Part shown: one piece after another, positions 53,615 through 64,000 of the stretch
Layout of the letters: the number at the start of each line of letters is the position of its first letter
Position numbering within the stretch: the first letter of the stretch is position 1
Assembly: GCA_902779165.1 (NCBI GenBank)
Contig: CACZAN010000005.1
Span: 27,200-91,199 of the forward strand
Length of the DNA: 64,000 nt
From: an uncultured Bacteroidales bacterium
GTDB taxonomy: Bacteria; Bacteroidota; Bacteroidia; Bacteroidales; Bacteroidaceae
Direction of reading: 5' to 3'
Program-made: the position numbers and the translations under genes
Notes under the pieces: model-generated
Database searches by the model: none
Seen by the model: the letters and a program-made list of their open reading frames with translations, nothing else
What the model was told of the DNA's origin: nothing

Positions 53615-53730
53615 GCTTATGGTGTACCAGTTGGTTGAATTAAATTGCTGTTCTCACGATTGATGCCGTAGCCATCTGATAAGGGTTCTTCTGGAATGAA
53701 GCGACCAAGGTCGAGCGCTTGAAATGTTAA

Positions 53731-53753
53731 GCGTCGCAAGCGCCGAGCGGAAA
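53731..53753. repeat. GCGTCGCAAGCGCCGAGCGG block
   Basis: Shared with the loop of the REP at 63806-63840 and, in degenerate form, with the insertion in prmC (15674-15752). It lies 30 bp before the REP series of this locus, next to GCGCTTGAAATGTTAAGCG. Confidence 0.6.
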
Positions 53754-53803
53754 GATTGAATGGCAGCAATTTGATATACAAGCCCCAGCGGGGCTTAATT
53801 GAG

Positions 53804-53828
53804 GTAGCCAGCCGTTTCAACGGCTGGT
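53804..53828 (+). repeat. REP-like hairpin, GTAG plus CCAGCCGTT/AACGGCTGG
   Basis: GTAG (53804-53807) directly before a 9-bp perfect stem (53808-53816 / 53819-53827) with loop TC. GTAG at the 5' foot is the hallmark of REPs acted on by RAYTs. Confidence 0.75.
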
Positions 53829-53877
53829 AATATGATTGTAAGAGGAATGCGTGCCTTTAGGTACGCGACAGCACCAT

Positions 53878-54336
53878 TTATTCTACCCCATGCATGATAT
53901 ATTCGGGTCGGGCTTCTATGCCTGCTTTTTGAAAGATCTCTGCCAACTCCTCCTCAAACGTTTTCTTTAGATGATGCTCACATTGATTGTCAATGTATCC
54001 CTTTACCGCTGCTACCATTGAACGACTATATGAGAAGGCTCCATAACCACCTTGCCAACTGAATGTGCCTTTATAGAACTTCTGATTAATCCATCGACTG
54101 GATTGTCCTTTCATCTCTTTCACTAATGAGGCTACAGATTCACTTGGATGCATACCAACCAACAAATGAACATGATCGGCGGTTCCGTTTATAGCATAGA
54201 CGAAGTGGTTACGATGTTGACATATAGCAGCCAAATAATGGTATAACTCATCCCTCCATACTTCACCAATCATAGCTTCACGTTTATTTACCGCAAAGAT
54301 GATATGCATGTAAATTTGTGTGAATGTATTTGCCAT
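53878..54336 (-). CDS. IS200-like (Y1, HUH) transposase, RAYT type
   Basis: A 152-residue single-domain Y1 transposase: HUH motif in TADHVHLLVGMHP (His55, His57), and catalytic Tyr114 in YIDNQCEHHLKKTF. It matches the Y1_Tnp family (PF01797) over its full length. No TnpB partner is present, and REP-like hairpins flank it on both sides in mirror orientation; both facts point to the REP-associated class instead of an ordinary IS200/IS605. Start ATG 54334-54336. Such proteins nick and join single-stranded DNA at hairpins. Activity is likely preserved, since all key residues are seen. Confidence 0.88.
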   Translation of the reverse strand: MANTFTQIYMHIIFAVNKREAMIGEVWRDELYHYLAAICQHRNHFVYAINGTADHVHLLVGMHPSESVASLVKEMKGQSSRWINQKFYKGTFSWQGGYGAFSYSRSMVAAVKGYIDNQCEHHLKKTFEEELAEIFQKAGIEARPEYIMHGVE

Positions 54337-54392
54337 TATTGCTGTTTTATTGTCGCGTACCTAAAGGCACGCATATTTATTGCTGATATCTT

Positions 54393-54417
54393 ACCAGCCA
54401 ATGAATTGGCTGGCTAC
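54393..54417 (-). repeat. REP-like hairpin, GTAG plus CCAGCCAAT/ATTGGCTGG
   Basis: On the minus strand GTAG precedes a 9-bp perfect stem with loop TC (54394-54402 / 54405-54413). The three inner pairs differ from the partner REP at 53804 but are compensated. Confidence 0.75.
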
Positions 54418-54558
54418 CTCTATTAAGCCCCGCTGGGGCTTTCTTCCGCAACTAACAAACTCGCTCTATTTCAACCGATTAACCTATTACTATTCCAGCT
54501 GATCAACCTCATGTCTAAACGACAAATAAATTCAACCAACTGGGTGCAGAATCCTTTC

Positions 54559-59192: not shown

Positions 59193-59526
59193 TCTTCAAC
59201 GCAGAGGCGCAGAGCCGCGAAGGATTTAGAGGTTTTAGAGCATGTCCTTTGACGCTGTCGCGTGAGGTCGCGGAAGCAGTGGGAACGCTACGCAGGTTCC
59301 CGCTGCGCGGAGATCGCAGAGGCCTACGGTGTGGCATCATTAATCAACTGATTAGTAAACCAGTAAAGTCATGCGCAGCTCTCTGCGTACTCGGCAGAGC
59401 ACAAACCTTGGCGCCCAGCGCCGTTTGTGCGCCCCTGCGCCCTCACGCGACAGCGTCAACTGCAATGTCTTAGCGTACTCTTTAGATCCGAGTCTCTGCG
59501 CCTCCGCGTCTCTGCGTTGAAGAAAT
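59193..59526. repeat. Large nested palindrome, 334 bp
   Basis: TTCAACGCAGAG (59195-59206) mirrors CTCTGCGTTGAA (59510-59521); TTGACGCTGTCGCGTGAGG (59249-59267) mirrors exactly 59441-59459. Inside are hairpins GGGAAC/GTTCCC (59281-59286, 59296-59301) and GCACAAA/TTTGTGC (59399-59405, 59424-59430). No gene. Confidence 0.8.
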
Positions 59527-59533
59527 AATTCAA

Positions 59534-59684
59534 GTTTCGCAAGTGATGCCGTAGGCATCAGACAATGGTAGCCAGCCATTTCAATGACTGGTAATGAGGA
59601 TGTTAACGGATAGCGTGCCGTAGGTACGCGACAGGGATTTGATGTCGCGTACCTAAAGGCACGCTTTTTCCTAGCTGCTTTATA
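59534..59684 (+). repeat. Left copy of a 151-bp REP cluster
   Basis: Contains TGATGCCGTAGGCATCA (59544-59560), a GTAG-led REP hairpin (59568-59591, stem with one mismatch), and a double hairpin of GCGTGCC/GGTACGC halves (59612-59665). It is 149/151 identical to the reverse complement of 63850-64000 (differences at 59587 and 59609). The repeat continues to 59735 with spacing changes. Confidence 0.85.
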
Positions 59685-59688
59685 CCGT

Positions 59689-59735
59689 ATTACAGCAGGT
59701 TCTTCGAAGAGTCGAAGCGAACAAAGTTCGAGCGA
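59689..59735 (+). repeat. Inner arm of the left REP cluster
   Basis: TTCTTCGAAGAGTCGAAGCG and following AACAAAGTTCGAGCG match, inverted, 63716-63756. The left copy lacks the REP and GCCCC hairpin that the right copy carries at this junction. Confidence 0.7.
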
Positions 59736-59829
59736 GCATATTTGCGAAACTTGAAGAAATAATAAAAACAGTCTGCGTTGAAAAATATTGCACTGTGTAT
59801 GGCAGCTTCAATTAAGGTAACAATGATTT

Positions 59830-63667: not shown

Positions 63668-63849
63668 GCAGTCATCGCAACGACACTCTCTCGGGCTTAT
63701 TCATAATCCTGCTCAAGTTTCGCTCGAACTTGTTCGCTTCGACTCTTCGAAGAACCAGCTGTAATGCAAAGCCCCAGCGGGGCGTGACAATGGTAGCCAG
63801 CCGTTTCCGCTCGGCGCTCTGCGACGCTTCACGCTTGAAGAACGGCTGG
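63668..63849 (+). repeat. Right REP cluster, inner part with an extra REP
   Basis: The arm 63712-63765 mirrors 59689-59752. It is followed by GCCCC-AGC-GGGGC (63771-63783) and a REP (63793-63850) whose stem CCAGCCGTT/AACGGCTGG (63797-63805, 63841-63849) encloses a 35-nt loop holding the GCGTCGC/CGAGCG block. The left cluster lacks this unit. Confidence 0.75.
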
Positions 63850-64000
63850 TATAAAGCAGCTAGGAAAAAGCGTGCCTTTAGGTACGCGACATCAAATCCC
63901 TGTCGCGTACCTACGGCACGCTATTCGTTAACATCCTCATTACCAGCCATTGAAATGGCTGGCTACCATTGTCTGATGCCTACGGCATCACTTGCGAAAC
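63850..64000 (-). repeat. Right copy of the 151-bp REP cluster, cut by the window end
   Basis: Reverse complement of 59534-59684 with two differences. REP at 63942-63967 has a perfect CCAGCCATT/AATGGCTGG stem with GTAG on the minus strand. TGATGCCTACGGCATCA at 63974-63990. Confidence 0.85.

Follow-up and report, generated by a model that had tools for sequence, protein, structure and literature searches.

The stretch analysed here (the window) comprises 64,000 nucleotides of an uncultured Bacteroidales bacterium (contig CACZAN010000005.1, positions 27,200 to 91,199) and sits in a genome of 3.59 Mb, in 75 contigs and 86% complete, which we label G000; other genomes carry labels of the same form. 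Next to metG lies an element with a single gene, tnpA, which encodes a 152-aa HUH/Y1 protein. The gene is framed by two mirrored arms of hairpins and bounded by inverted terminal repeats (Table 1), and the list of open reading frames holds no second long frame between these repeats, unlike in IS200/IS605 elements. The original prediction, made from the letters of the window, had described a system of repetitive extragenic palindromes (REPs) served by a REP-associated tyrosine transposase (RAYT). Its anatomy of the flanks was accurate for the mirrored sides, the GCCCC, GTAG-led and GCGTGCC/GGTACGC hairpins and the perfect 15-bp repeats, and erred only in giving the GTAG hairpin a 9-bp stem, which is 8 bp long with a 4-nt loop. 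The proposed unit of at least three ordered hairpins is supported as well. The GTAG hairpin pattern occurs three times in the window and in none of 100 shuffles, and the dispersed copies expected at 59.6 and 63.9 kb are both present.

Table 1. Features of the tnpA element and of the two gene-less composites in the window.
Feature	Position	Strand	Remarks
Left terminal repeat	53627-53641	+	CCAGTTGGTTGAATT; end of the tnpA-bearing (type B) element
Degenerate GATGCC...GGCATC hairpin	53662-53676	+	intact in many dispersed copies
Left mirrored arm	53780-53870	+	three hairpins, 91 nt
GCCCC hairpin	53780-53796	+	AAGCCCCAGCGGGGCTT
REP-type unit	53804-53827	+	GTAG, 8-bp stem, 4-nt loop
GCGTGCC-TTTA-GGTACGC hairpin	53849-53866	+	
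tnpA	53878-54336	-	152-aa HUH/Y1 protein; subclass 1.2 signature His55, His57, Tyr114, WQ, Y---Q--HH
Right mirrored arm	54351-54441	-	91 nt, 84% complementary to left arm
GCGTGCC-TTTA-GGTACGC hairpin, mirrored	54355-54372	-	
REP-type unit, mirrored	54394-54417	-	
GCCCC hairpin, mirrored	54425-54441	-	
Right terminal repeat	54529-54543	-	perfect inverted copy of the 15-bp left repeat
Target-site duplication, left copy	59522-59528	+	GAAATAA
First dispersed composite (type A)	59529-59755	+	227 bp, no gene; IS4-type ends TTCAAGTTTCGCAAGT ... GCGAAACTTGAA
REP-type unit in first composite	59568-59591	+	one stem mismatch
Target-site duplication, right copy	59756-59762	+	GAAATAA
Second dispersed composite	63712-64000	-	runs into contig end
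33-nt module	63808-63840	+	inserted in the loop of the second composite's other REP
REP-type unit of second composite	63943-63966	-	perfect

The predicted catalytic residues of TnpA were placed correctly and are invariant when TnpA is aligned with 11 relatives (12 sequences in all). The protein scores 99.5 bits with Pfam Y1_Tnp (cut-off 23), passes the NCBIfam IS200 model (79.3 bits, cut-off 55) and fails the RAYT model NF047646 (20.2 bits, cut-off 80). The NP(L/V)(R/K)xG motif beside the catalytic tyrosine, a RAYT hallmark by the definition given in PMC2817692, is absent from TnpA, whose Y motif reads YIDNQCEHH. Together with DHVH and WQ, this motif matches TnpAY1 subclass 1.2 (HuH motif DH[IV]H, WQ, Y---Q--HH), and TnpA is also like that subclass, as characterised in PMC6006769, in its size of ~150 aa, its low copy number and its occurrence in Bacteroidota. 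In a tree of 53 proteins, the 43 rows bearing the subclass 1.2 motif form one group with weak support (85/67) that joins three IS200-type rows (96/88), and E. coli RayT falls outside this assemblage on a long branch. The AlphaFold model of TnpA (mean pLDDT 83.1) matches the ISDra2 and IS608 transposases best, with the RAYT structure 4er8 at rank 30. TnpA fits TnpAY1 subclass 1.2 and not the RAYT lineage; the distinct RAYT lineage that had been suggested is contradicted by profile score, the missing NP motif and the tree position with IS200-type proteins. By profile, tree and fold, its closest Y1 relatives are those of IS200/IS605 (subclass 1.1), from which the present element differs in its mirrored flanks, its single gene copy and its 15-bp perfect inverted ends. 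Only one full-length Y1_Tnp match was found in the source genome, which agrees with the low copy number of subclass 1.2; the two other matches lie in long frames and score 23.2 and 21.7 bits, the former barely above the cut-off. Two Y1-domain proteins of G000 besides TnpA, of 385 aa (contig C40, L032/L073) and 343 aa (contig C18, L033), have long C-terminal parts and a DNP motif past the tyrosine region.

Across G000, the strict pattern GTAGCCAGCC-N3..12-GGCTGG has 84 matches and the reversed-pattern control has none, so the genome does hold many copies of the GTAG hairpin. In the stretches taken around these matches, CCAGCC and GGCTGG are separated by 8 nt in all 92 hairpins (6-12 nt scanned), and the pattern originally put forward for such a search, GTAG-CCAGCC-N7-GGCTGG, would find none of them. 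GTAG stands on one side of 82 of the 92, on both sides of one and on neither side of nine. Among the 84 GTAG hairpins, 69 have the loop TTCA and 83 have a perfect stem despite variable inner pairs. Two inner stem pairs covary (A-T in 54 and G-C in 30; T-A in 73 and A-T in 10, with one mismatch), and because the partners change together, pairing appears to be kept while the sequence drifts. GTAG hairpins in inverted pairs thus flank the single tnpA and recur genome-wide, which is the arrangement known from RAYT-type systems.

Most of these REPs belong to larger palindromic units whose ends are conserved (consensus YTSAAGTTTCGnAAGT), and 41 of 43 two-ended units measure 153-322 bp. Comparison of a relative's tnpA locus with G000 gave 106 matches; one covers tnpA, another falls on a neighbouring gene and the rest of those listed are left or right arms. 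Two-ended units in G000 and in two related genomes, G222 and G302, are flanked by a direct repeat of at least 7 bp in 26 of 36 cases, compared with 1.5% in a re-paired control, although in this count each boundary was free to shift by 5 nt and lengths may be overlong by chance. In a second count, a perfect 7-bp repeat lies exactly at the boundary of 19 of 43 units (control 0.33%) and within 2 nt of it in 28 (control 0.45%). Both counts cover units with both ends and with flanks of at least 12 nt (43-unit test) or 18 nt (36-unit test). In the 22 units whose flanking 7-mers show no more than one mismatch at the exact boundary, A+T makes up 83% of the duplicated sequence. Pairwise differences among seven G302 units amount to 0 to 4 in 235 bases, which indicates recent movement. 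The type B ends of the G000 tnpA element (CCAGTTGGTTGAATT) are common to it and a handful of dispersed units.

Modules of ~33 nt that start with CGCTCG sit at several positions in composites, including a REP loop (the window, Table 1; L066 on contig C45 and L205 on contig C18 of G000; L210 in G222), and a similar sequence occurs in the left tnpA flank near 53690-53750. Many G000 composites lack the central stretch, with differing end points, as expected of unstable long palindromes, and an assembly bias towards shortened copies is possible.

A candidate for the enzyme that moves the composites was found in G302. There, two composite-type ends 1.59 kb apart enclose a 496-aa open frame, a DDE transposase that scores 395 bits with the NCBIfam IS4 family model NF049925 (cut-off 250). 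Composites and this complete insertion sequence (IS; L203) have 15 of 16 terminal bases in common, by eye, and one composite directly adjoins the IS (L171, L203). A 153-bp stretch of the IS, one end included, is kept in G000 with 150 positions identical, in contrast to metG, for which the two genomes are only 85-86% identical. In G000, 52 of 65 REP clusters have an end of this type within 200 nt, and 32 have one on either side; the corresponding figures are 22 of 25 clusters for G222 and 8 of 9 for G302, compared with 34 of 2000 random positions. Elsewhere such ends were found at one of nine clusters in G304/G305, one of eight in G255/G230/G084 (the one in G084) and none of nine in G311; for G222, G302, G304, G255 and G311, the scan covers the clusters of fetched stretches. 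The three genomes rich in units are those in which IS4-type ends are common. Searched against plasmids, neither the in-window composite nor the IS gave a match.

We favor, at a probability of roughly 0.7, an explanation by two layered mobile systems: a Y1 gene with its own hairpins, and an IS4-type miniature inverted-repeat transposable element (MITE) that carries the gene-less frame. In the first layer, a single-copy subclass 1.2 Y1 nuclease from the IS200 side is accompanied by its own REP-type hairpins, mirrored on both sides as in a REPtron and ordered as small palindrome, short spacer, GTAG and 8-bp stem with 4-nt loop. The protein probably recognizes these hairpins, and the enzyme would most likely bind them in single-stranded form and cleave beside them. 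In the second layer, (i) the gene-less frame would have acquired IS4-family ends, in the source genus and a neighbor, (ii) an IS4 DDE transposase, an enzyme of the cut-and-paste kind, would act in trans on the inverted ends of the resulting MITE, mostly 150-320 bp long, and (iii) insertion into AT-rich sites would create the ~7-bp duplication, with the REPs as passengers. The architecture, the shared ends, the duplications, the complete IS in a relative and its 153-bp fragment in G000 can be read off the sequences themselves. An IS of the G302 type would be the mobilizer of the composites, the dispersed units are likely spread in trans by a DDE transposase, and the MITE and the tnpA-bearing frame appear to derive from one another. 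We consider it probable that IS4-family MITE packaging explains most of the dispersal in this group, and counted in favor of it that 84 strict REPs stand against one full-length Y1 gene. Because the ends and 7-bp duplications of the units match an IS4-family DDE element, the role of tnpA as the source of the dispersed REPs, part of the original prediction, is not supported.

Like MITEs of IS4-family elements, the composites are mostly 150-320 bp long, have inverted ends and AT-rich duplications of ~7 bp, contain no gene and are matched by a transposase-bearing element in a relative; unlike them, their body is a REPIN-like palindrome (REPIN, REP doublet forming a hairpin) related to the frame of a Y1 gene. 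With bacterial interspersed mosaic elements they share a mosaic of several palindromes with paired REPs, from which they differ in being bounded by transposon-type ends.

Several observations weigh against the layered explanation. A complete IS4 copy was recognized only in G302 and in neither G000 nor G222; the IS protein has no match in the fetched stretches of these two genomes, and the IS-spaced ends noticed in their match lists belong to neighboring composites. Short-read assemblies often miss ISs present in multiple copies. No clear target duplication flanks the G302 IS itself, 15 of the 43 units are without a perfect 7-bp duplication, and at most one of the five listed type B elements has a duplication that is clear by eye. 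Units were located through strict pattern matches, so diverged ones were missed. No type A end, at two mismatches, lies within 200 nt of any of ten tnpA loci (L074-L080, L090, L092, L093). The gene is therefore not seen travelling on these ends, which slightly lowered our confidence; one side of the G222 tnpA locus, by eye, resembles a degraded type A end with a length change. In G303, G306, G307, G095 and G197, ends were scanned at the tnpA locus only. Finally, 25 REPs in G255 and 5 in G230 occur in genomes that have no subclass 1.2 match, and no IS4-type ends were found at the six of their clusters that were examined.

The distribution of REPs among related genomes bears on the alternative that dispersal is the work of the Y1 protein itself, on the model put forward for RAYTs and REPINs, with the duplications arising from an unknown step of its mechanism. 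Gene and REPs do co-occur in the genus. Among 14 genomes without a protein match that belong to the genus of G000 (as does G222, by a computed grouping), 13 have no strict REP and one has a single imperfect match. These counts agree with the difference expected between relatives with and without the gene, a rule that G255 and G230 do not follow. Strict REPs number 84 in G000, 96 in G222, 2 in G095 and 1 in G197, the carriers of a protein at least 50% identical; in carriers found through contigs, they number 3 (G302), 3 (G303), 13 (G304), 6 (G305), 0 (G306), 3 (G307) and 0 (G308). In G302, seven amplified units carry a changed foot in addition to the 3 strict REPs. Cognate hairpins are present in 12 copies in G311 and in 2 in the Verrucomicrobia genome G309, both at its own locus. 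Five more genomes of the genus encode a distant protein, at 31-38% identity, and are devoid of REPs with this sequence. The few strict REPs in other carriers mean that tnpA alone is insufficient for high numbers, and with IS4-type ends common only in unit-rich genomes, tnpA was rejected as the sole explanation of copy number.

Dispersal by the Y1 protein would also account for the mirrored frame common to gene and REPs, for the REPs of G311 and G304 with few or no IS4-type ends, and for the intact catalytic residues of TnpA. However, the units have terminal inverted repeats and target duplications, and the account of IS200/IS605 elements in PMC2817692 describes them without terminal inverted repeats and larger target duplications. 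The match of the unit ends to a DDE element and the scarcity of strict REPs in other tnpA carriers also speak against it, and we regard this alternative as unlikely.

A class 2 Y1 gene is present in both G255 and G230. As the source of the 25 G255 REPs it was rejected, since the gene (L124) is flanked by other palindromes. These palindromes, GGAGCCAAAGGGGACGGTTC, form a frame reminiscent of the Y1 genes flanked by terminal inverted repeats that are presented in PMC3733652.

By a reading of the flanks, tnpA lies at a shared place in G222 and G302, with neighbors unlike those in G000. No tnpA element was seen beside metG in G222, G302, G095 or G197, where the neighboring genes differ, so these genomes offer no clean empty site. 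The tnpA loci of G095 (L092) and G197 (L093) are identical at 607 of 635 bases in different genera by the computed grouping, and the unit therefore also passes between species. A frame next to tnpA in G197 is presumably a restriction-type gene.

In a two-transposase partnership, the Y1 protein and its hairpins would give the DDE-mobilized MITE something it is missing, for example extra copies at single-stranded palindromes, repair or shortening of palindromes, or a replication-fork bias. Conventional transposases would then be able to spread captured REP families quite generally, and both Y1 branches would maintain rather than move them. We think this rather improbable.

We give little credence to a classical class 2 RAYT/REPIN system in Bacteroidota. 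One Y1 gene, flanking inverted GTAG hairpins and dispersed inverted doublets are indeed shared with the RAYT/TnpAREP REPtrons and REPINs as portrayed in PMC2817692 and PMC3116915. The present system differs from them in its Y1 branch, its extra ordered hairpins and its doublets with DDE-type ends and target duplications, and the RAYT profile far under its cut-off, the absent NP motif, the place in the tree with IS200-type rows and the low rank of 4er8 all oppose this explanation. A host function, at transcription ends or in mRNA stability, might be what preserves the repeats, with their spread incidental. This would suit the folding of one whole unit, which is far better than that of shuffles (z -13.0); it is nevertheless very unlikely as an explanation, because duplications and near-identical copies testify to recent movement and any mode of spread could accommodate such a role. 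An assembly artefact of a metagenome bin, which might be suspected because several contigs end in or near repeats and internal deletions vary, is hardly credible given the same architecture in other bins and distant relatives and duplications that match their local flanks.

Mirrored hairpins are a common feature of subclass 1.2. In the table of Quentin et al. 2018 (PMC6006769), the REP entry for this subclass is "no", and the subclass is said there not to share IS properties. Loci came from a contig scan (16 loci) and from a sample of 301 genomes of the family, 43 of which have a match. Of 43 loci submitted to a hairpin test, L098 and L102 lack the Y-motif pattern, which leaves 41 distinct loci; the test did not include L085, L087, L089 or near-duplicates of loci already listed. 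With a mirrored pair defined as perfect hairpins with a stem of at least 6 and at most one mismatch between the sides, such a pair was found at 23 of the 41 loci; at least seven positions match at 19 of them, and the foot matches at 15. The corresponding numbers for 1500 random positions were 10, 0 and 0. The other 18 loci have no mirrored pair by this strict test, and some of them have hairpins that lack a match between the two sides. Loci with mirrored hairpins span five phyla, represented outside Bacteroidota by single loci of Verrucomicrobiota, Planctomycetota, Acidobacteriota and Hydrogenedentota. The system here and these 23 loci thereby depart from the published table.

Beside WQ proteins, 35 of 67 hairpins are preceded by a four-base foot that ends in AG; where another residue follows W, none of 15 is. 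All 11 non-WQ proteins fall into a single clade of the tree, so that this correlation counts as one contrast and not as many. PMC6006769 and PMC8266576 list Q95 of E. coli TnpAREP with the residues that contact GTAG, and by analogy the WQ of subclass 1.2 proteins may play the same part. At L082 (Verrucomicrobia) and L088 (Hydrogenedentota), two hairpin types densely alternate around tnpA, in the order small hairpin, spacer, GTAG and hairpin as in Bacteroidota, with unrelated stems.

Among open-licence PMC papers, we found none that connects REPs with either IS4 MITEs or subclass 1.2; MITEs of Porphyromonas gingivalis did turn up. The dissemination of REPs is called poorly understood in PMC8266576. 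Since the units described here bear readable insertion scars, this question can be put to the test, and a DDE transposase is the vehicle that the scars suggest. An orphan Y1 branch, subclass 1.2, would gain a likely substrate, and the findings suggest that REP-type systems of several phyla had a second origin, on the IS200 side.
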